DNA of 51,013 nucleotides from an uncultured Alteromonadaceae bacterium (GTDB lineage Bacteria > Pseudomonadota > Gammaproteobacteria > Pseudomonadales > Halieaceae), in contig CAJYAI010000014.1 in assembly GCA_913064725.1 (NCBI GenBank), positions 1-51,013 of the forward strand, given 5' to 3'. A model generated the notes under the pieces. That model ran no database searches, was not told where the DNA came from, and saw only the letters and a list, made by a program, of their open reading frames with translations. The translations under genes were made by a program, and so were the position numbers. Below are positions 21,795-49,877 of the stretch, piece after piece (the first letter of the stretch is position 1; the number at the start of each line of letters is the position of its first letter).

Positions 21795-21891
21795 CGGCGG
21801 GATGCTACCGTTTTATTGCTCTATAGATTTTAAGATGGCAGCCTTAGAACGATGACTTTGACAGCATGACCAATTGACGCTGACATAAAAA

Positions 21892-21917
21892 AGCCCGCTT
21901 CTGGCGGACTTTCTTGT
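21892..21917. terminator. Imperfect hairpin at the 3' end of the glycan locus
   Basis: AGCCCGC and GCGGACT pair with one C-A mismatch. On the plus strand TTTCTT follows, and on the minus strand a T6 run follows. It could end transcription of sulfatase 4 from the left and also act on minus-strand transcripts. Confidence 0.5.
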
Positions 21918-21929
21918 GGTTTTCAAGAC

Positions 21930-22072
21930 CAGCCAGCTTGCCTTCAATCGCCATTGCCTCTGGCGATTGAACCCTTAGGGCGCCATCGCTGTGCTCTGGC
22001 GGACTAAACGCTCCTGTCGTACCGTTCTTCAACAGGCCTTGCCATTCCGAGAGTGTGGTAAACCTCTAAACA
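21930..22072 (-). repeat. Dispersed tRNA-Val-derived repeat, copy A (most degenerate)
   Basis: This copy contains the hairpin TCAATCGCCA / TGGCGATTGA (21944-21953 and 21961-21970) and the GGCGGACTAAACGCTCC block shared with copies at about 30.3, 34.3 and 42.7 kb. The tRNA 3'-end match is reduced to GACCAGCCAGCTT on one side and a decayed T-arm on the other. The inserted element spans about 21940-22027. As in copy C, GTGTGGTAAACCTC precedes a terminator. Confidence 0.75.
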
Positions 22073-22098
22073 CAAAAAAGCCCGCACATGGCGGGCTT
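22073..22098 (-). terminator. Rho-independent terminator of the choice-of-anchor-I gene
   Basis: Read on the minus strand, AGCCCGC / GCGGGCT (7-bp stem, 5-nt loop) is followed by six T, 18 bp past the stop codon of the gene at 22116-24533. Confidence 0.85.
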
Positions 22099-30103: not shown

Positions 30104-30210
30104 ATGCCTATCTAGTAAACTCAATGAAATAAAATTATGGCGAAACAGAAACTTGTGATCGCGTTATCGCTTTCTAGGGAACAAAGAGCCGCATCAGGCG
30201 GACGCCTTTA

Positions 30211-30407
30211 TATTTGGTAGGACCAGTCAGATTGTCTTCAATCGCCATTGCCTCTGGCGATTGAACCCTTTGGGCGTCTTCGCGTTGCTACGACGGACTA
30301 AACGCTCCTTAGGTCGCGTTTTTCGAACTGGCGACCTCTACCATATCAAGGCTCACAGAACTCGCGACAACAAGTTAGGACACGATAAAGGTTAACATCT
30401 GAGTGGT
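30211..30407 (-). repeat. Dispersed tRNA-Val-derived repeat with inserted 89-bp element, copy B
   Basis: On the minus strand it reads as a pseudo-tRNA: GAGTTCTGTGAGC (D-arm remnant), CTTGATATGGTAG (GAC-type anticodon loop region mutated to GAT), GAGGTC, then the T-arm GCCAG-TTCGAA. It is then interrupted by about 89 bp (30234-30322) before resuming ATCTGACTGGTCCTACCA with an encoded CCA end. The insert carries the 10-bp hairpin TCAATCGCCA / TGGCGATTGA. Homology to copy C continues through AAAGGTTAACA and GAGTGG. No protein gene is supported in 30104-30528. Confidence 0.8.
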
Positions 30408-30528
30408 TCTGATGGCCCGATTTAAAATTGCAAAACCTATTTTACCAGTCGCTGCTAAATGGCTTGCCTCACCTGCTACAGGCGACTACGACTGATTGAT
30501 GCTCGGTAACTCAGAGCGTTACAGCTCT

Positions 30529-34261: not shown

Positions 34262-34556
34262 GTTTGGTGAGACCAGCCAGATTGTCTTCAATCGCCATTG
34301 CCTCTGGCGATTGAACCCTTTGGGCGCCTCCGCGTTGCTCCGGCGGACTAAACGCTCCTTAGTTCGCGTTTTTCGACTGGCTTCGCCAGCCCGATAGTGT
34401 GGTAAACCTCCAAACATAAAAAAGCCCGATTTAGGCGGGCTCTTTTATATTTGGTAGGACCAGCCAGATTCGAACTGACGACCTCGACCATGTCAAGGCT
34501 CACAGAACTCGCCACAACACGTTAGGACACTGTAAAGGTTAACACCTGAGTGGCTC
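34262..34556 (-). repeat. Dispersed tRNA-Val-derived repeat, copy C: one interrupted and one uninterrupted tRNA-like unit
   Basis: Minus-strand order is as follows. The pseudo-tRNA at about 34535-34452 contains CTTGACATGG, GAGGTC, an intact T-arm GTCAG-TTCGAAT-CTGGC and TGGTCCTACCA. A terminator hairpin follows. Then comes a second tRNA-like 3' part, GCCAGTCGAA, interrupted by the 89-bp element (34284-34372) and resuming ATCTGGCTGGTCTCACCA. The first unit shows the sequence without the insertion, which fixes the insertion point within the T-loop. No protein gene is supported between 34100 and 34645. Confidence 0.82.
34417..34441 (-). terminator. Rho-independent terminator within repeat copy C
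   Basis: On the minus strand, AGCCCG / CGGGCT closes a short loop and is followed by TTTTTTATG. It could end transcription from the epimerase gene at 34646 and is part of the repeat unit, as in copy A. Confidence 0.7.
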
Positions 34557-34645
34557 GACTGGGCTAACGGCGTGCCTTTTCTGCCAGCATGAAGGCGCCT
34601 TGTATTCCCGAGTACTTACTGAGAAGAGGTGCGGAAATGAAGTAG

Positions 34646-41962: not shown

Positions 41963-42641
41963 GCCCTTGCATACCGCGATACGAAAAGACGTTTTGGCCT
42001 GCGTGGTTACCGGACTGGTGTTTTTCGCATTGCCGGAGATAGATATCTGGGTGAGTAAACAGTTTTATGATGGAGGTGTCTTTTACCTTCGTGAAAATAC
42101 GCTCGTTACGACGATCTACCATATTTTTGCGAAGATTCATTTTGCATATCTTCTCGTTTTTCTTTTCGCCCTCGCAGTCCTGAGTATTGTTAAGAATGAG
42201 GCGGGTGCAAAGTGGCGAAAGCGCTTACGTTTCTTACTTTTGGTGCTCCTGCTCGTTCCCGGTCTTATTGTGAATGTAGGATTGAAAGACAATTCATTTG
42301 GACGCCCCAGACCTGTGCACATCGAGCAGTTCGGTGGTCAAGCTGAATTTACCCCCGCTTTTGTTTACTCAGGCGAATGCGCGAAGAACTGTTCTTTTGT
42401 AAGTGGCCACGCCGCTATCGCCACCTTTGTCATTGCCTTTGCTTGGATGTTTGGTAGTCGCCGTCTATTTCTCGCTGGGCTCTTTGCGGGTTTGGCGGTG
42501 GGTATGGTGCGAATATTTCAGGGGGGGCACTTCCTCAGTGACGTTATCTTTAGCCTGTGGGTAGTGTATTTCGGGACGCTTCTGTTGGCACATCAGTATC
42601 GTTTTAGCATGTCATGTAAAAATGAGGGTCCGATAACCTAA
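41943..42641 (+). CDS. PAP2-family membrane phosphatase 2 (LpxE-like candidate)
   Basis: The protein has 232 residues. ATG 41943 follows AAAGG and overlaps the GT39 stop by 20 bp; longer frames from 41871 lie inside the GT39 gene. Motifs: K-D-N-S-F-G-R-P-R-P, S-F-V-S-G-H-A-A-I-A-T and R-I-F-Q-G-G-H-F-L-S-D-V. The K-x6-R-P form with E-C-A-K-N-C in the loop resembles lipid A 1-phosphatases of the LpxE type, but PAP2 subfamilies are hard to separate by eye. It is the last gene of the cluster; repeat copy D begins right after it. Confidence 0.9.
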   Translation: MNIAVIKPLHTAIRKDVLACVVTGLVFFALPEIDIWVSKQFYDGGVFYLRENTLVTTIYHIFAKIHFAYLLVFLFALAVLSIVKNEAGAKWRKRLRFLLLVLLLVPGLIVNVGLKDNSFGRPRPVHIEQFGGQAEFTPAFVYSGECAKNCSFVSGHAAIATFVIAFAWMFGSRRLFLAGLFAGLAVGMVRIFQGGHFLSDVIFSLWVVYFGTLLLAHQYRFSMSCKNEGPIT

Positions 42642-42649
42642 CTGCTTTC

Positions 42650-42835
42650 TATCTTTGGTACGACCAGCCAGATTGTCTTCAATCGCTATTGCCGCGGGCG
42701 ATTTCACCCTGCGGGAGTCTCCGCGTTGCGCCGGCGGACTAAAACGCTCCTGAAGTCGCGTTTTTCGAACTGCGACCTCTACCATGTCAAGGCTCACAGA
42801 GCTCGCCACAACACGTTAGGACATGTCGCAGACTA
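42650..42835 (-). repeat. Dispersed tRNA-Val-derived repeat with inserted element, copy D
   Basis: Minus strand: GTCCTAACGTGTTGTGG, GAGCTCTGTGAGC (a shortened D-arm GCTC-TGT-GAGC), CTTGACATGGTAG, GAGGTCGCAGTTCGAA, the insert of about 90 bp (42675-42764), then ATCTGGCTGGTCGTACCA. The inner hairpin has diverged (CAATCGCTATTGCCGCGGGCGATTT) but the insertion point is the same as in copies B and C. No protein gene is supported here. Confidence 0.8.
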
Positions 42836-42872: not shown

Positions 42873-44471
42873 TCATATTTTATACTTCTGGCGCAATATC
42901 TTGGTCAGATCAAGCCCAATCGCCGTTGCGAATGAGCTTACTAACTGATCTACCGACATCTCTGGTTCTGTATGTCCAAACACTAGTCTGTCTGGCCTCA
43001 GAAGTACGCTTTCACCACTGGTTAATTCTGCAGGATATTTACCTTGCAGCAGTTCAATCTCGTCAAGATCAATAACTTTGATGCTCAATGCCTCGACTAG
43101 AGCCCGGCTATTTTCGTTCAAGGCAACTGAGCCCTGTGTAATCAAGCCCGCCTGTGTACCCAGGAGTTCGTCGAACCGTTGCTCTTTGCCTGTCGTATCA
43201 CGAACCACCGGTTGGGCTAGCAAGTAACCTGTCGCCCCCTGGTTAGAAACCTGCTCAACAAGCACGACCCCTGAGCGAATGGGCGGCTGCTCTCTGCCTT
43301 GGCCATAGCCAGATGAGCGCGATGTTTGCTGCATTTCTGGGGGTGCTTCGCCGACGCGCTCGGCCGCCTCGGTTGCCGCCATGTGCTGCATTAGGTGGCC
43401 CATGTCTACTGCCCAAGACACTAGATCATGGGCATGGGCATCACGTTCTGTTTGGTAGGTATCCAGCAGTGATTGTGTGCACGCGCCCTTTAGCACTAAG
43501 GGCAACTTCCAGGCCAGATTGATCACGTCGCGCATGCCTGAATTCATGCCTTGCCCCAAGAAGGGTGGTGTTTGATGGGCGGCGTCGCCAGCAAGAAAGA
43601 CGCGCCCCCGCTGCCAACTATCGGCGATAGCCGCGTGAAATTGATACACGGCAGTGCGACGAAGTTTGTAGGTATCACGCGGTGTCCAGCTATCCAAAAG
43701 CGCATGTATGGTGTCAGTCTCGAGCATCTGTTCCGCGCTTTCACCTGGGTTTAGCTGGAACTCCCAACGGCGGTAGGGGTCCTTGGTGGCGACATGGGTG
43801 TGAATTCGGTCAGGATCACAGACCTGCAGCACTTCATTGGGCAGATTGTGTGTTTTCAGCATTTCCACATCGACAACCAGCCAATCTTGATCATAGCCAA
43901 GGTCCCGCAATCCAACACCCAGTGCTTTGCGCGTTGGACTGTTTGCCCCGTCACAGGCAACGAGATATTTGGCAGTCAATGAAACGCTTTTGCCGATGCC
44001 TGAGGCATTAAGTGTGACCTGGGTTGGACTGTTGAAAAACTCGGTAACTTCATAGCCTACATAGTGAGAGACATTGGCATGAGACAGTGCTTGGGTGCGC
44101 AGGAAGCTCTCCAGTTCTGGCTGGTCAAACATATTGGCAGACTGCCAGCCACTGCTGCCTACAGCCACAGCATTGCCGCCGAACAACCACTCCCGTTTAG
44201 AGTTCGCGAAGCCCGCCCGTTCGTTGGCGCGAATGGGCTGCATCATTTGATTCACCGTTTCTGCTAACCCTATTGGCTGCAACGCGCGGATGATTTCGCC
44301 ATCTAAATTAACCGCCCTCGGCAGGGTATACACTTGTACTTCTTTTTCGACCGCAACAACCTTAAGGCCTGCTTCGGCGAACAAAATGGCCGCCAAGCAT
44401 CCCACCGGTCCTAAGCCGACGATGGCAACATCAAAAGGACGGCTCAAGCCGTTGTGTGCTTCTGTGGTCAT
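42873..44471 (-). CDS. FAD-dependent aromatic hydroxylase, MhpA-like
   Basis: The protein has 532 residues. The N-terminal FAD fold has V-A-I-V-G-L-G-P-V-G at 15-24. The D-G-A-N-S-P-T-R segment and F-L-A-G-D-A-A-H-Q-T-P-P-F-L-G-Q-G-M-N-S-G bind the cofactor as in p-hydroxybenzoate-hydroxylase-type enzymes. Length and motifs fit 3-(3-hydroxyphenyl)propionate hydroxylase and resorcinol-hydroxylase relatives, which put an OH next to a phenolic OH using NAD(P)H and O2. Its start overlaps the stop of the hydrolase gene upstream by 4 bases. The product would be a catechol for the extradiol dioxygenase encoded divergently at 46081. Substrate not determined. Confidence 0.92.
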   Translation of the reverse strand: MTTEAHNGLSRPFDVAIVGLGPVGCLAAILFAEAGLKVVAVEKEVQVYTLPRAVNLDGEIIRALQPIGLAETVNQMMQPIRANERAGFANSKREWLFGGNAVAVGSSGWQSANMFDQPELESFLRTQALSHANVSHYVGYEVTEFFNSPTQVTLNASGIGKSVSLTAKYLVACDGANSPTRKALGVGLRDLGYDQDWLVVDVEMLKTHNLPNEVLQVCDPDRIHTHVATKDPYRRWEFQLNPGESAEQMLETDTIHALLDSWTPRDTYKLRRTAVYQFHAAIADSWQRGRVFLAGDAAHQTPPFLGQGMNSGMRDVINLAWKLPLVLKGACTQSLLDTYQTERDAHAHDLVSWAVDMGHLMQHMAATEAAERVGEAPPEMQQTSRSSGYGQGREQPPIRSGVVLVEQVSNQGATGYLLAQPVVRDTTGKEQRFDELLGTQAGLITQGSVALNENSRALVEALSIKVIDLDEIELLQGKYPAELTSGESVLLRPDRLVFGHTEPEMSVDQLVSSFATAIGLDLTKILRQKYKI

Positions 44472-45343
44472 CGAATAGCGGCGGTATCTGGTTCCGCAAT
44501 CACCTCGTTCTCAATAAAACCAAGGCCCTCAATTTCGACTTTCACCGTGTCGCCGATTTGCAGCGTCGCTTGTGGCTGCATCGCTGCGCCCACGCCGCTT
44601 GGTGTGCCAGTCGCAATTATATCGCCGGGTTCCAGGGTGAATGCGGTGCTCAAAAACTCAATAATGTCGTAACAGTTGAATATTAAGTCGTCGGTATTGG
44701 TCTCTTGCCGCAGCTCACCGTTGACGAAGGTTCTGAGCATGAGGTGATGAGGGTCAACTTCATCTGCGGTGACGATGGCCGGCCCGAACGGGTTATGCGT
44801 ATCCCAAGATTTACCCATAGTGAACTGTGGTGGAGTTGCGAGAAACTGCCATTCGCGAACACTGACATCGTTCAACACGCAGAAGCCTGCGATGACTTTG
44901 CTGGCGTCATCCTTGCTAACTCGCCGGCACCGTTTGCCGATAACTATGCCTAACTCACCCTCGTAATCGAGCATCTTGGTTTCTTGAGGCGAGTGAATCG
45001 GTGCATAAGGCCCGTTGGCCGAGGTTGCCTGCTTAGTAAAGACCACTGGATATTTGGGGATGTCCATATTGCTTTCTTTGGCGTGGGCCTGGTAATTCAG
45101 GCCGATGGCAAGAATCTTTGGCGGCCGTCGTATGGGGGCTTCGATTACTACGTCAGCAGCAGCAAAATGTGTTGCGGCATCAGCGTGCTTCGCGGCTTCC
45201 TGCAGGGCTGTATCGCCTGCCTCAAGCAGGGTCAGCATATCGTCAGGCAACGCCGGAGCTGTCTGAGATAAATCAACGATTTGCTCGCCCTGTAGCAGTC
45301 CAATTCGGGTTCGTGAAGATTCGGTAAAGGTAATCAGCTTCAT
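44468..45343 (-). CDS. Fumarylacetoacetase-family hydrolase
   Basis: The protein has 291 residues with the standard FAH fold: I-L-A-I-G-L-N-Y-Q-A-H-A-K-E, then D-Y-E-G-E-L-G-I-V-I-G-K (metal ligands), F-C-V-L-N-D-V-S-V-R-E-W-Q, T-M-G-K-S-W-D-T-H-N-P-F-G-P and I-I-A-T-G-T-P-S-G-V-G. Family members hydrolyse C-C bonds in diketo acids or decarboxylate and isomerise ring-cleavage products. Here it would act on the product of the extradiol dioxygenase. It overlaps the TetR stop and the hydroxylase start by 4 bases each, so the three genes form one minus-strand operon. Confidence 0.93.
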   Translation of the reverse strand: MKLITFTESSRTRIGLLQGEQIVDLSQTAPALPDDMLTLLEAGDTALQEAAKHADAATHFAAADVVIEAPIRRPPKILAIGLNYQAHAKESNMDIPKYPVVFTKQATSANGPYAPIHSPQETKMLDYEGELGIVIGKRCRRVSKDDASKVIAGFCVLNDVSVREWQFLATPPQFTMGKSWDTHNPFGPAIVTADEVDPHHLMLRTFVNGELRQETNTDDLIFNCYDIIEFLSTAFTLEPGDIIATGTPSGVGAAMQPQATLQIGDTVKVEIEGLGFIENEVIAEPDTAAIR

Positions 45344-45996
45344 AGTGGTTTCTCTGGCGGAGTAAATAAATTGGCGACTGCATCCGCGTGCGCCTCGACC
45401 CTTTGCGGGTCTAGCGGGTTTTGGCCAGACAATGCCTCGGCTTCAGAAGCGTTCGAGAACATCAGCGTCGCAGCACCCGTTAGAATGTAATAAAAGTGAT
45501 GTGCATCCATTTTCGGCGCAGCGCCGAGGTCCTTAGCTCGATTAAACACGCGACATACTTGTTGGTACCACGGTCTTACTGATCGCTCCAACAACCACTG
45601 CAAACGCCAGTCGTTGTGCATGCCTTCTTGAATCATCAAGCGGTTGAGCTCCGGATGTTTGGCGCAAAAAGTAACGTAGGCGTGCACAAAAAAACGCAGT
45701 TTCAAGTGGTCGTCTATCTGCTTGATATTCTTTAACGCTCCGCCAAGATCCTGCTCGGTAATCGACATCATATGGTCTGCAGCAGCCTGCCAGAGCGCCT
45801 GTTTAGAGCCATAGTGATGATTGATCAAGCCGCGCTTAACGCCTGCGGCGGTCTCTATACTGCGCGTTGAAGCGGCATCGTAGCCTCTAGTGGAGAATGC
45901 GAGAAGGGCCGCATGCACCAGCTTTTTTTTCGTGGCCTGGGCATCGCGAAGTTTGTTTACGCAGTTGGCTGTGGGCGTGCGCCGGGCAGAATTCAC
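45340..45996 (-). CDS. TetR-family regulator of the aromatic/aryl-sulfate cluster
   Basis: The protein has 218 residues. It starts at GTG 45996 behind AGGGA. The N-terminal HTH is typical (L-L-A-F-S-T-R-G-Y-D-A-A-S-T-R-S-I-E-T-A-A-G-V-K-R-G-L-I-N-H-H-Y split over residues 32-62), with the usual Y-G-S-K-Q-A-L-W after it. The ligand domain has M-I-Q-E-G-M-H-N-D. It is the first gene of its operon and shares a divergent promoter with the dioxygenase gene; the palindrome at 46045-46062 between them is the obvious operator. The likely ligand is an aromatic intermediate. Confidence 0.92.
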   Translation of the reverse strand: MNSARRTPTANCVNKLRDAQATKKKLVHAALLAFSTRGYDAASTRSIETAAGVKRGLINHHYGSKQALWQAAADHMMSITEQDLGGALKNIKQIDDHLKLRFFVHAYVTFCAKHPELNRLMIQEGMHNDWRLQWLLERSVRPWYQQVCRVFNRAKDLGAAPKMDAHHFYYILTGAATLMFSNASEAEALSGQNPLDPQRVEAHADAVANLFTPPEKPL

Positions 45997-46044
45997 ATGG
46001 GTCCCTAGAATGAACTTGTGTAGTGTTTAGCTATTTTATATATT

Positions 46045-46062
46045 ACTTGTCAATTGGCAAGT
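46045..46062. promoter_or_regulatory. TetR-type operator candidate in the divergent promoter
   Basis: ACTTGTCAATTGGCAAGT is an 18-bp palindrome with one mismatch, midway between the TetR and dioxygenase starts and 19 bp before the dioxygenase ATG. An identical 16-bp core occurs at 49634-49649, upstream of the sulfatase gene. Confidence 0.65.
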
Positions 46063-46080
46063 TAAACAGTAAGGGAGCCC

Positions 46081-47004
46081 ATGCCGAACATCAAAGACAT
46101 TCTATATGTCAGATTTCGTGTCACCGACCTACAGGCGCAAAAACAGTTTTTGGAGGATTTTGGCTTCCAAACGAAGCTAGACGGCGATCTGTTGATGGCT
46201 CGGGGTACCGATGACACCCCATACATCTATCTTGCTCAAGAGGCTGTTGAGCCGGGTTTTGTTTGTGTCGGCTTTGCTGCAGAGTCGGCAGATGCGTTGC
46301 GGGAAATCGCTGCCATCGACCAAGTGCCGGTAGAGGCTAATCCGCTGGAGGGAGGCGGGCTGATTGCTCGTCTTACCGACCCCAACGGCTTCTCTGTAGA
46401 TGTGGTGGCCGATATCTCGGCTGCGCCGTCGCTTACCGTGGCCGGACGCTCAGGCCTCAACAGTGGTAATGAGAAGCAGCGCTTGGGCGAACGGGTGGCT
46501 TTCGCAGACCCTGAGTGTTCGATCAAGCGTCTTGGTCACGTGGTGCTGATGGTGAACAACTTTCAGGAAACCTTTGAGTGGTATCAATGCCGTCTGGGGT
46601 TGCTGATTTCCGATGAAATTGTCATGGAAAAAGAAGGCGAAGAGCACACCTTGGGAGCGTTCACGCGCTGCAACCGAGGGGAAGAATTCGTTGACCACCA
46701 CACACTATTTTTCATTGACGCGGGGCATGCAGACTTCAATCATGCCGCCTTCGAAGTGGCCAATTGGGATGTACTAATGCGGGGTCACTATGAGCTGAAA
46801 AAAGCGGGTCACCAGCATTCTTTCGGTGTGGGCAAGCACATACTAGGTAGCCAAACCTTTGATTATTGGAAAGATCCAAACGGTTTTATGCTCGAGCATT
46901 TCACCGATGGCGATCTCTTTAATGAGTCCTTTGGTTCGCATAAGCGCAGCCCTGCGGATTTGCTCGGCACTCACTGGGGGCCAGAGGGTATGCCCGGGCA
47001 ATAA
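46081..47004 (+). CDS. Extradiol ring-cleavage dioxygenase (VOC superfamily, type I)
   Basis: The protein has 307 residues. ATG 46081 follows AAGGGAG. It has two VOC modules of about 140 residues. The C-terminal one holds the metal ligands His153 (L-G-H-V-V-L), His221 (F-N-H-A-A-F-E) and Glu272 (M-L-E-H-F-T-D-G). Their spacing is close to that of BphC-type 2,3-dihydroxybiphenyl dioxygenases. It cleaves a catechol next to the two hydroxyls using Fe(II) and O2 in the cytoplasm. The GST gene starts soon after its stop, and the regulator, hydrolase and hydroxylase are divergent. A decayed copy of its first 22 codons and its promoter lies at 49620-49735. Confidence 0.93.
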   Translation: MPNIKDILYVRFRVTDLQAQKQFLEDFGFQTKLDGDLLMARGTDDTPYIYLAQEAVEPGFVCVGFAAESADALREIAAIDQVPVEANPLEGGGLIARLTDPNGFSVDVVADISAAPSLTVAGRSGLNSGNEKQRLGERVAFADPECSIKRLGHVVLMVNNFQETFEWYQCRLGLLISDEIVMEKEGEEHTLGAFTRCNRGEEFVDHHTLFFIDAGHADFNHAAFEVANWDVLMRGHYELKKAGHQHSFGVGKHILGSQTFDYWKDPNGFMLEHFTDGDLFNESFGSHKRSPADLLGTHWGPEGMPGQ

Positions 47005-47061
47005 GTGAGTGGTAAACCGGCGGTTGCACGCAGCCAGTCAAACTCAGGAGTACGAAGCACC

Positions 47062-48063
47062 ATGACAATCTTGTTTGGTCTGATTTTGGTCGGTATCACG
47101 TTGGCAATAGTTTTAATGCTTCGAGAGCGCTCGATGCGACAAACCCGGGTGGTTCCTCCGGGTTTGCAGTCTGATATCAGTCTGCCTTTTGAGGCTGAGT
47201 GGACGCTTTACCACAATCCGTTTTCGCTATGCTCCAAGAAGATCCGCGTCTGTTTAGCGGAGTATGGCGTGGTTTTTGACAGTATTGCGATAGATCTCAT
47301 TGAAACCGGTAGTTATCAGAACATCAGTCGGGAATTTCTCAAGGTGAATCCCGGAGCCACTGTACCGGTGCTCTTGCATAACGGGCATCCGATTTACGAA
47401 TCACACGAGCAGCTAAATTATGTTGCCGCAAAGGTTGATGTAACCGGCCTGTTGGTGCCAGACAGCACAGAGCAACGACAAGTGATGGATGCATGGGTGC
47501 ATAAAACCTCCCTAATTGGCGACGATCCCATCGAGTCGCCAGAAGCAACGGCCGGCAACGCGGTTCCCGGTCTCACTATCCCAATCTTTGCTTCCATGGT
47601 GGCAAAAATCCCGGTGTTGAATATTTTTGAGGGGCTGTTGTTCCATCGTATTAAGCAGCGGGCGTTCTTCTTTCTGATGATGAGACTTGTTGGATTGCCA
47701 AAAACGCTGACCCTGAAGCCCGTAATCCATATCGTTAACCGAGCATCCGAGGCGATGGCCGCACATCTGGATGATCTTGAGCAGCAACTTGTTAGCAGCC
47801 AAGGGCCGTGGATTTGCGGCCAACAGTTCAGTCTTGCCGATGTGGGCATGATGGTGGTTTTTGATCGTCTGAGAGAGGGAGACTGGCTAACTCTACTGGT
47901 AAAGGACCGGCCGGTCCTGGATGCTTACTGGAGCGCCCTGCAGCAGCGGCAAAGCTATCGCGAGGGCTGTCTAGAGCACGAACACCCCGCTGTCGTTCAG
48001 GCGACCAAGGAACTTATGAGTCTTAAACAACTGCAGCGATGGCCTTCGGATATTCCTCAGTGA
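47062..48063 (+). CDS. Membrane-anchored glutathione S-transferase-like protein
   Basis: The protein has 333 residues from ATG 47062, which has GGAG 11 bases upstream. GTG 47005, directly after the dioxygenase stop, would add 19 residues. A single membrane helix (M-T-I-L-F-G-L-I-L-V-G-I-T-L-A-I-V-L-M-L) is followed by a GST N-terminal thioredoxin fold (L-Y-H-N-P-F-S-L-C-S-K-K-I-R, V-P-V-L, Y-E-S). The helical C-terminal domain (W-I-C-G-Q-Q-F-S-L-A-D-V) carries an insertion of about 90 residues. In ring-cleavage pathways GSTs act as maleylpyruvate-type isomerases or conjugate reactive intermediates. The anchor is unusual for such enzymes. It is convergent with the sulfatase gene, 38 bp apart. 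Confidence 0.87.
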   Translation: MTILFGLILVGITLAIVLMLRERSMRQTRVVPPGLQSDISLPFEAEWTLYHNPFSLCSKKIRVCLAEYGVVFDSIAIDLIETGSYQNISREFLKVNPGATVPVLLHNGHPIYESHEQLNYVAAKVDVTGLLVPDSTEQRQVMDAWVHKTSLIGDDPIESPEATAGNAVPGLTIPIFASMVAKIPVLNIFEGLLFHRIKQRAFFFLMMRLVGLPKTLTLKPVIHIVNRASEAMAAHLDDLEQQLVSSQGPWICGQQFSLADVGMMVVFDRLREGDWLTLLVKDRPVLDAYWSALQQRQSYREGCLEHEHPAVVQATKELMSLKQLQRWPSDIPQ

Positions 48064-48101
48064 GGCTCAGCCGGCCAGATTGCTTGTATCGTTGCGATCG
48101 T

Positions 48102-49583
48102 TTATTCAACTGGGCTTTGGGTTGTTGAGCCCTCATTGCGCCGACTAGCAGCCTCGGCCCAGGGTGGACGGGTCTCCTCGCCCCCAAATGTGTCCCAAGG
48201 CTGATCCGTCGCGAATTGCACCGGCTTGCTTCGCGGCACTGCGAGCAAGGCTTCGCGCATTTGTGAGAATCGCTGAGGAAATTGTTCCTTTAAATCTTCT
48301 AGCTCACGGGGATCTGTTTCGATGTTATGAAGATACCAAGTGTCGGACTTCAAAAAGTCAGGCATAACGGGCAGTGAGCCTTCGCGGACCACCTTCCAGG
48401 GCCAATCTATCATGGCCTCGCTGTCGAAATTGGCGACAACAAAAGGCTTTGCTGGTAACGGCGATTCGCCTAAAAGAGCGGCTTTGATGCTCCGTCCATC
48501 AACACTGTTAATAGTAAGACCCGCTATATCGGTAAGCGTTGGCAACACATCGGCAATGTTAACAGCCTGAGAGAGCGGCTCGCTGGACTCCATTTTGCCC
48601 GGCCACCAAATTGCAGCAGGCACGCGGATACCACCCTCGAATACAGACCCTTTACCCTGTTTAAGGCCACCATTATTGCTAAAGCCATCGCGCATGGGTG
48701 GAATGAGTAGTTCGATTAGCCAGGGCTTCGGTGAGGAGCCACCATTGTCACTGGCAAACAAAATTACCGTATTCTTGCCCCAAGACTGGTTCATTATTGC
48801 TTCAACAACATCTCCAACCGCATTGTCGAGGGCTGAGATCATACGCAACAGGGTGGCACGTCCTTGATGTTCGACGCTGGCATCTTTGGGTTCTTCAACA
48901 GGCGTGTGGATAGCATTGAAGGAGACAAATAAGAACAGTGGGGCGTCGCTTGCGGTGCGGCCTTCAATGATGTTGATGGCTGCGTTTTTAATTAGGTCTG
49001 TGGTGTAGCCCTCCTCACGTAGGGTCATACCATTTTTTTGCCAATCCAGACCGCCAGAGAACACATGGTCGAAGTAACCTATGCCGCCGTTGAGGTGCCC
49101 GTAAAAAGAGTCAAAGCCGCGCTGCTGAGGCCAGTAGGCGGTATTGGCGTTGCCCAAATGCCATTTGCCAACTAAATGTGTCTGATAGCCCACGCCTTTG
49201 AGGTGCTCAGGCAGCGTCTGCCAATGCAGCGGCAATCCCTCACTGGAGTGCCATTGTATAGGGCCTTTAACGCCGTGCGTGGTAGCGAATAGGCCTGTCA
49301 GCAGCGAGGCTCGGGTGGGTGAGCAGGTAGGGTTAACGTAAAATCGATCAAACTCCACACCTTGAGCAGCGATGCCATCAATATGAGGCGAAACAACATT
49401 TTCATTGTGATAGCCGACGTCACCCCAGCCGAGATCGTCAACCAAGAGGATCACCATATTGGGTTTGGATATTGATATTGCTTCGCCGTCCGCGGATACG
49501 ATGCCGGCCGCGGTCGCCGTAAGCGCTGTGCTGCCGAGGAAAAAGAAGATACAAATCGCTAAATAGTGTTTGAGCAGTGGCAT
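48102..49583 (-). CDS. Exported arylsulfatase (formylglycine type, arylsulfatase-B-like)
   Basis: The protein has 493 residues. The signal peptide (M-P-L-L-K-H-Y-L..T-A-T-A-A) directs it to the periplasm. Active-site pieces: V-D-D-L-G-W-G-D-V-G-Y, maturation motif C87-S-P-T-R-A-S-L-L-T-G, V-G-K-W-H-L-G, N-A-I-H-T-P and A-S-D-N-G-G-S. The Q-Q-R-G-F-D-S-F-Y-G-H motif is typical of arylsulfatase B-like enzymes. It is the only sulfatase of the window outside the glycan locus. The promoter region carries a copy of the aromatic-cluster operator, so the natural substrate may be an aryl sulfate whose phenol feeds that pathway; a glycan substrate cannot be excluded. Confidence 0.92.
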   Translation of the reverse strand: MPLLKHYLAICIFFFLGSTALTATAAGIVSADGEAISISKPNMVILLVDDLGWGDVGYHNENVVSPHIDGIAAQGVEFDRFYVNPTCSPTRASLLTGLFATTHGVKGPIQWHSSEGLPLHWQTLPEHLKGVGYQTHLVGKWHLGNANTAYWPQQRGFDSFYGHLNGGIGYFDHVFSGGLDWQKNGMTLREEGYTTDLIKNAAINIIEGRTASDAPLFLFVSFNAIHTPVEEPKDASVEHQGRATLLRMISALDNAVGDVVEAIMNQSWGKNTVILFASDNGGSSPKPWLIELLIPPMRDGFSNNGGLKQGKGSVFEGGIRVPAAIWWPGKMESSEPLSQAVNIADVLPTLTDIAGLTINSVDGRSIKAALLGESPLPAKPFVVANFDSEAMIDWPWKVVREGSLPVMPDFLKSDTWYLHNIETDPRELEDLKEQFPQRFSQMREALLAVPRSKPVQFATDQPWDTFGGEETRPPWAEAASRRNEGSTTQSPVE

Positions 49584-49633
49584 CGCCGGGAAGACCTGTT
49601 GTTTTTTATAATTCGAGGCAATTTTATATGTGG

Positions 49634-49649
49634 CTTGTCAATTGGCAAG
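49634..49649. promoter_or_regulatory. Second copy of the TetR-type operator, upstream of the sulfatase
   Basis: CTTGTCAATTGGCAAG is identical in 16 of 16 bases to the core of 46045-46062 and lies 51 bp before the sulfatase start. It is part of a duplicated block of about 115 bp. Confidence 0.65.
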
Positions 49650-49664
49650 TTAAACATAAGGGAA

Positions 49665-49735
49665 CCCATCCCGAACATCAAAGACGTTGTATATGCCAGA
49701 TTTCGTGTCACCGACCTGCAGGTGCAAAAATAGTT
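49665..49735 (+). pseudogene. Decayed copy of the 5' end of the extradiol dioxygenase gene
   Basis: The sequence matches 46081-46146 closely (P-N-I-K-D-V-V-Y-A-R-F-R-V-T-D-L-Q-V-Q-K), but the start codon is ATC and a TAG stops the frame at Q-K-*. About eight substitutions and one indel are visible against the parent over some 87 bases. After this point the similarity ends. Confidence 0.85.
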
Positions 49736-49877
49736 TATCGGTGAACGCTACTCCATCTGCCAGAGGGAGCTGCCTTTGAATTTCAAAAATCTCGAGGAGC
49801 GCTTGCTCGAGGAACTCAACCGTTTGCGTCAACTTGAGTCGAGTGTCGATAAAGTACTGTCCGGCCTGACGCCATAG
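49736..49877 (+). pseudogene. Possible 3' remnant of an unidentified gene
   Basis: In the same frame as the dioxygenase remnant, an open stretch of 46 codons ends at TAG 49875. It reads like the C-terminus of a helical or coiled-coil protein (N-L-E-E-R-L-L-E-E-L-N-R-L-R-Q-L-E-S, then K-V-L-S-G-L-T-P). There is no start codon of its own with a ribosome site. It may be a scar of the gene that was fused to the duplicated block. Nothing further is recognised up to 50061. Confidence 0.4.

Follow-up and report, generated by a model that had tools for sequence, protein, structure and literature searches.

An exported sulfatase gene beside aromatic ring-cleavage genes in marine gammaproteobacteria, with a duplicated putative TetR operator

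Why does the gene of an exported sulfatase adjoin two divergent operons for aromatic ring cleavage, and does the palindrome found both between these operons and before the sulfatase place all of them under one regulator? Marine bacterial sulfatases are readily taken for polysaccharide tools; the arylsulfatases of SAR202, for example, were speculated by the authors to be polysaccharide enzymes (PMC6946804, portions of the text). The window, i.e., the whole stretch of DNA analysed (51,013 bp), is the complete contig C14 of a 2.63-Mb genome (G000; completeness 98.3%). Its relevant genes are:

42873-44471, minus strand: MhpA-type FAD-dependent aromatic hydroxylase (FAD_binding_3, PF01494; NCBIfam subfamily NF004829)
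44468-45343, minus strand: fumarylacetoacetate-hydrolase-family (FAH) C-C hydrolase (FAA_hydrolase, PF01557, 232.6 bits)
45340-45996, minus strand: TetR-family regulator (PF00440)
46081-47004, plus strand: VOC-type extradiol dioxygenase (domain, fold and putative Fe ligands H153, H221, E272)
47062-48063, plus strand: membrane-anchored GST (domain; hydrophobic N-terminal stretch; frame open from 47005)
48102-49583, minus strand: exported formylglycine-type sulfatase (PF00884; signature CSPTR, Cys87; hydrophobic N-terminus)

The families and strands read by the initial annotation (TetR regulator, FAH hydrolase and MhpA-like hydroxylase on the minus strand, dioxygenase and GST on the plus strand, sulfatase adjoining) agree with the domain searches. 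The GST start at 47062 is preferred over 47005 because the GST of the related locus L029 begins at the same place. The hydroxylase passed the cut-off of the NCBIfam subfamily NF004829 (468.3 bits, cut-off 390) and fell below that of all four NCBIfam equivalog models compared. The FAH hydrolase is also below the NCBIfam equivalog cut-offs, and the profile comparison of the cluster proteins gave sub-cut-off matches to the maiA and HpaG models. An MhpB-type dioxygenase and an MhpC-type alpha/beta hydrolase are absent from the six genes at 42.9-49.6 kb, which carry the VOC dioxygenase and the FAH hydrolase instead.

The model of the dioxygenase (mean pLDDT 80.9; 47 of 307 residues below 50) has the two-module VOC fold, with TM-scores by query length of 0.70 (3b59), 0.66 (1mpy) and 0.69 (LapB). 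This fold is common to PDB 3b59 and the catechol 2,3-dioxygenases, to which sequence identity is 24% or less. Residues H153, H221 and E272, which by motif we take to be the 2-His-1-carboxylate iron ligands, are invariant in all 12 aligned dioxygenases. The modelled fold and the putative iron site are those of a type I (VOC) extradiol dioxygenase, and catechol cleavage is predicted.

Twelve related loci from marine gammaproteobacterial MAGs and single cells were collected by dioxygenase search; their record titles include Halieaceae, Luminiphilus, K189A and OM182, and one is labelled Pedosphaera. The gene order hydroxylase, FAH hydrolase, TetR regulator, dioxygenase and GST, and the palindrome separating the two operons, are shared by 11 of the 12, the same number in which a TetR homologue was found; the hydroxylase of L030 is cut by the contig end, the FAH hydrolase of L034 is 49% identical, and L040 has the dioxygenase and FAH hydrolase only. 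The sulfatase follows the GST and adjoins the cluster in eight of the 12 loci. L030 and L033 have other genes after the GST, L036 ends inside the GST, and L040 lacks the sulfatase. Searched in full, the genomes of these four loci gave no close sulfatase (best E 4.8e-32 or no match; genome completeness not given), so the sulfatase is an accessory of the cluster. The contig of L035 is probably misbinned: its bin is Pedosphaera (Verrucomicrobia), but the cluster on it is the gammaproteobacterial one, and in the sulfatase tree it falls together with L037 of Halieaceae.

Sulfatase homologues were also collected regardless of their neighbours, from 140 genomes of the family (12 matched, E 1e-80) and 293 of the order (12 matched, E 1e-60), the own genome included; the neighbour table holds the 26 homologues from both searches, with the own genome excluded. 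Each of the six homologues with 50% identity or more has a dioxygenase, or a hydroxylase together with an FAH hydrolase, no further than 10 kb away. The same holds for 11 of the 16 homologues scoring at least 300 bits vs none of the 10 weaker ones (Fisher p 0.0007, which is just indicative since the rows are related and the 300-bit line was drawn after inspection of the table). Four layouts could be distinguished: (i) the window type; (ii) VOC-ECH-Sulf-Diox-FAH-MhpA on one strand (G381, G374, G353); (iii) MhpA-SDR-Sulf with the dioxygenase and/or FAH hydrolase nearby (G255, G302, G068), including an example with divergent TetR and dioxygenase genes; and (iv) sulfatase and ASST-like domains in one protein of 1017 or 1029 residues beside the dioxygenase and FAH hydrolase (G356, G399). 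The fused genes are:

L089, 9292-12345, plus strand: sulfatase-ASST-like (PF05935) single open frame beside ring-cleavage genes
L090, 2386-5475, minus strand: sulfatase-ASST-like (PF05935) single open frame beside ring-cleavage genes

Their C-terminal domains match PF05935 with 54.5 and 51.8 bits (cut-off 24.2); a sequence search gave no solved ASST relative of the L090 domain (best match E 0.35). In G337 and G221 the sulfatase stands beside a gene of the DAPG-hydrolase family, in G221 also with an FAH gene. No aromatic-pathway neighbour was recognised for the sulfatases of at least 300 bits in G159, G024 and G275, the last on a contig of 4.3 kb. In the sulfatase tree, all 12 members of the window clade (support 100/100) lie beside ring-cleavage genes, as do 17 of the 23 members of the wider clade. 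G255 also carries a ring-cleavage core without an adjacent sulfatase; in its second dioxygenase cluster a PF00685 sulfotransferase gene follows the sulfatase (L065, 7260-8198).

The pairing of genes is well supported, and the arrangement is a genuine variant of aromatic catabolic clusters, one that recurs. The initial proposal that sulfatase and ring-cleavage genes belong together is supported by the eight adjoining loci and by sulfatase homologues in differently laid-out aromatic clusters; judged from gene arrangement, the link between sulfatase and ring cleavage is strong.

The regulatory part of the question concerns the following elements:

46046-46061, no strand: putative operator 1, palindrome CTTGTCAATTGGCAAG, between the divergent operons (motif comparison, conservation)
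49634-49649, no strand: putative operator 2, identical to operator 1 and 50 bp upstream of the sulfatase start codon (motif comparison)
46033-46060, minus strand: putative leftward promoter TTGCCA-N16-TAAAAT, overlapping operator 1 (motif spacing)
49621-49648, minus strand: putative sulfatase promoter TTGCCA-N16-TAAAAT, overlapping operator 2 (motif spacing)
46030-46149, plus strand: direct repeat copy 1, with promoter, operator and dioxygenase codons 1-23 (self-comparison)
49618-49736, plus strand: direct repeat copy 2, a dead dioxygenase 5' stump (self-comparison; ATG to ATC at 49668; TAG at codon 22, 49731-49733)

Both exact copies of the palindrome named by the initial annotation were confirmed. 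The palindrome is imperfect, its reverse complement differing at two of 16 bases. With up to two mismatches allowed, the 2.63-Mb genome holds the two exact copies and two other places at two mismatches; with up to three, the window gives four matches (two sites on both strands), vs a mean of 0.46 and a maximum of 3 in 100 shuffles. The self-comparison of the window extends the repeat to 120 bp of 89% identity (BLAST E 1.5e-33). A chance 16-bp repeat is ruled out by the shuffles, this alignment and the genome-wide count, and so is the simple pair of operator sites initially read here, operator 2 being part of the 120-bp copy. Copy 2 extends past the operator and across the dioxygenase start, so the duplication placed part of the divergent promoter, together with the 5' end of the gene, ahead of the sulfatase and directed away from it. 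Codon 22 of copy 2 is TAG in both the window and L029, and the start is lost in the window only. What is kept in the window, facing the sulfatase, is the operator and the possible leftward promoter. The stump is followed by about 47 residues of open frame (49734-49874), with 87% identity to L029; this stretch looks like the end of another gene and has no relative in the other loci compared.

Operator 1 recurs with 0 to 2 mismatches in 11 of the 12 related loci (not in L040). Over 11 sequences, with the near-duplicate L029 left out, its mean majority identity is 0.98, and that of the two blocks on its left 0.70 and 0.80. The element toward tetR has the same N16 spacing in all 12 sequences (window and 11 loci) with a variable -10 box. 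Such a conserved palindrome in a divergent intergenic region, present in the window and 11 of the 12 loci, has the form of a TetR operator unit, to which TetR binding is putatively assigned.

The distribution of operator 2 is narrower. A search of genomes for the sulfatase together with this TetR and palindrome had been suggested initially; the gene stands beside the cluster in the eight loci, and of these only L029 and L039 have the palindrome before it. Upstream of the sulfatase in L031, L032, L034, L035, L037 and L038 neither an operator nor a dioxygenase remnant was found (their scores are attained in 32 to 196 of 300 shuffles; just 142 bp covered in L035), so that dioxygenase stumps before the sulfatase in all relatives are ruled out. 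The -10 box of copy 2 in L029 is TAACAT, off the motif, and the L039 copy reads TTGTCA-N16-TATAGT. Beyond operator 2, the L039 stretch is still similar to the dioxygenase 5' end (score 25 vs 6.6 +/- 3.4 for shuffles, 0 of 500 reaching it). L039 stands outside the other eight members of its group on the sulfatase tree, and hence the pattern of operator 2 fits two gains as well as it fits a single gain with a single loss.

L029 shares a 7.1-kb block with the window, which begins (42764) inside the last copy of an interspersed repeat family with spans of about 190-300 bp (21888-22097, 30183-30415, 34263-34562, 42641-42826). Between repeat copies L029 has 5.4 kb vs 21 kb in the window; given this difference and the start of the shared block, the repeat looks like a recombination point.

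The second palindrome could be a dead hitch-hiker, part of an incomplete dioxygenase copy that came to lie ahead of the sulfatase and plays no part in regulation; we regard this as possible, if doubtful. The copy does carry 23 dioxygenase codons with a start lost in the window (ATG in L029) and a common stop, six of the eight sulfatase-bearing relatives have no such site, the presumed -10 box of L029 misses the motif, and in the window itself the intact operator block is weakly unusual against the 87% identity around it (p about 0.04). However, the window retains both the operator and the leftward promoter spacing, and L039 keeps 21 of 22 operator positions beside a dioxygenase remnant decayed to roughly 60% (rough p about 4e-4, the identity being set by eye). 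The operator copy is real and limited to some lineages, and it is probably functional; operator 2 looks like a promoter capture in a minority of lineages. The shared duplicated operator of the initial annotation stands as sequence, with the amendment that it came with a partly duplicated dioxygenase 5' end and that most sulfatase-bearing relatives do without it.

The substrate has to be considered from the sulfatase family as well. The PF00884 domain and the C-x-P-x-R signature place the protein among the formylglycine S1 sulfatases. Its nearest solved relatives, mainly glycan sulfatases, include 6bia (184.5 bits), GalNAc-4-sulfatase 1fsu, iota-carrageenan sulfatases and S1_19 sulfatases. These share the CSPTR signature and PF00884 with it, but the genes around it belong to aromatic catabolism instead of glycan breakdown. 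AtsA of Pseudomonas aeruginosa (1hdh), an S1 sulfatase acting on aryl sulfates, is a clearly weaker match (110.6 bits). The AlphaFold model has a mean pLDDT of 39.4, and no conclusion is drawn from it. Of the "exported arylsulfatase" first proposed, the sulfatase with a hydrophobic N-terminus is retained; "aryl" is absent from the sequence and comes from the context. The authors of SulfAtlas warn that the name "arylsulfatase" is often inaccurate (PMC5066984). As the sequence leans to glycan sulfatases and the name is often misapplied, it stays tentative.

Both this warning and the carrageenan, GalNAc-4 and S1_19 relatives would suit a sulfatase acting on algal sulfated polysaccharide, its place beside ring-cleavage genes being incidental, and so would a polysaccharide-utilisation-type cluster on the same contig (4372-21794), which comprises a LacI-like regulator (by eye), a TonB receptor, a beta-helix protein, GH3 and four further sulfatases. 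We consider this unlikely in view of the recurrent co-location with aromatic genes in different layouts and the fusion to an ASST-like domain; moreover, the domain search found no glycoside hydrolase among the six genes at 42.9-49.6 kb. Sulfur scavenging instead of carbon supply is highly improbable for a sulfatase gene tied to ring-cleavage genes in seawater, which is rich in sulfate. It is known for bacterial arylsulfatases on soil phenolics, and those of the AtsA sort are described as sulfur scavengers (PMC5066984, in part).

We therefore favour, with reasonable though far from full confidence, a TetR-controlled catabolic module for sulfated phenolics, in which the sulfatase of this lineage would have come under the same control via a captured, duplicated divergent promoter. 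Phenolic sulfates are probably the substrate: an exported sulfatase and regulated ring-breaking enzymes, paired again in differently arranged clusters, suggest that the microbes probably strip sulfate from phenolics before eating the ring. Counted for this reading are the co-location, the varied layouts, the DAPG-hydrolase neighbours, the intact putative iron ligands and CxPxR signature, the conservation of operator 1, the promoter motif found at each of the two operators in the window, and the L039 case. Counted against it are the glycan-type solved relatives, the four of 12 genomes without a close sulfatase, the six of eight relatives without the operator, the contexts in G159, G024 and G275, the polysaccharide-type cluster on the contig and the maturase gap described below.

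In comparable pathways, GST isomerises the ring-fission product, and the roles of GST and FAH hydrolase given here follow general knowledge of GST/FAH pairs. The order of steps is proposed from the gene families. Removal of sulfate from a phenol sulfate by the exported sulfatase would take place outside the cytoplasm, and the freed phenol would enter the cell. Subsequent hydroxylation to a diol could be performed by the MhpA-type flavoenzyme, and ring opening by the VOC extradiol dioxygenase. The ring-fission product could be isomerised by GST and then split by the FAH hydrolase into acids for central metabolism. Desulfation, hydroxylation, meta-cleavage and hydrolysis had been proposed from the outset and are kept as a proposal; the GST step had been left out. 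Expression would be controlled by TetR binding to the palindrome between the divergent operons, with release by a phenolic inducer. In the captured promoter copy, the half facing the sulfatase would have been kept, and the half once driving the dioxygenase copy would be dead. In several genomes the ring-cleavage core is kept and the sulfatase is missing; the sulfatase therefore probably extends the substrate range of a module that handles free phenols as well.

S1 sulfatases require formylglycine, and the formylglycine-generating enzyme (FGE) has the cysteine pair C-x4-C. The sole PF03781 protein of G000 is a PEGA-FGE fusion with the end RGASWSLSRLRELRL and without this pair; profile searches (PF03781, TIGR03942) found no known maturase in G000, neither an FGE with the cysteine pair nor an anSME. 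At its cut-off, the anSME model TIGR03942 matched none of 16 and none of 9 genomes, with weaker matches in two and two and none in G000. Among the PF03781 matches of G000 and its relatives (all except one of G427 and duplicates of twice-present genomes; L132 taken as L152, L125 and L129 as L151), the cysteine pair occurs in L055 alone, whose bin carries the Pedosphaera label. Only the second cysteine is present in L126 of G255, and L150 of G375 is broken off. Several other PF03781 proteins, of about 430-460 residues with the common end RGGSCxTP, are another kind within this superfamily. G000 and its relatives (L066, L109-L155) thus have several formylglycine-type sulfatases, no Cys-pair FGE and no anSME above the cut-off; the gap extends to the single-contig genomes G068, G342 and G343, a true FGE being found only in G427, the bin that includes L035. 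There is either an unknown maturase or one that the FGE and anSME searches miss. A known maturase in the genome is not a defining feature of the sulfatase itself, for which other maturation routes are possible. Should the gap be real, another sulfatase-activating system might be sought in these genomes.

More speculatively, the sulfatases may form an unnamed formylglycine sulfatase clade of marine gammaproteobacteria dedicated to sulfated (poly)phenols rather than glycans. Such a clade would accompany ring-cleavage genes in several arrangements, carry a fused ASST-like domain in some cases, enter the TetR regulon by duplicated-promoter capture and be matured by an enzyme other than FGE or anSME; this broader idea is put forward only tentatively. 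If a clade of sulfatases is bound to ring cleavage, this would suggest that marine bacteria draw carbon from sulfated phenolics, for which algae or seagrass may be the origin, and would provide a gene marker for such use. The operator copy offers a legible example of how a gene can enter a regulon by way of a partial gene duplication.

Literature searches, which covered few subscription journals, gave no report of a sulfatase and ring-cleavage cluster of this kind among the matches listed. Aromatic-degradation potential is described for North Sea gammaproteobacteria, with the sulfatase pairing not mentioned in the available portion of the text (PMC8371827).

The cluster can be set beside two known systems. 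The mhp genes of E. coli encode the 3-(3-hydroxyphenyl)propionate pathway, in which a flavin hydroxylase of the MhpA kind is followed by extradiol cleavage. This sequence is common to both, but the present cluster has a VOC-type dioxygenase, an FAH-family C-C hydrolase, a GST, a TetR regulator and an added sulfatase. In gentisate- and homogentisate-type routes, a GST isomerase and an FAH hydrolase act after ring cleavage. The GST and FAH pair is likewise found here, whereas ring cleavage is assigned to a VOC extradiol enzyme and the proteins stay below the equivalog cut-offs.
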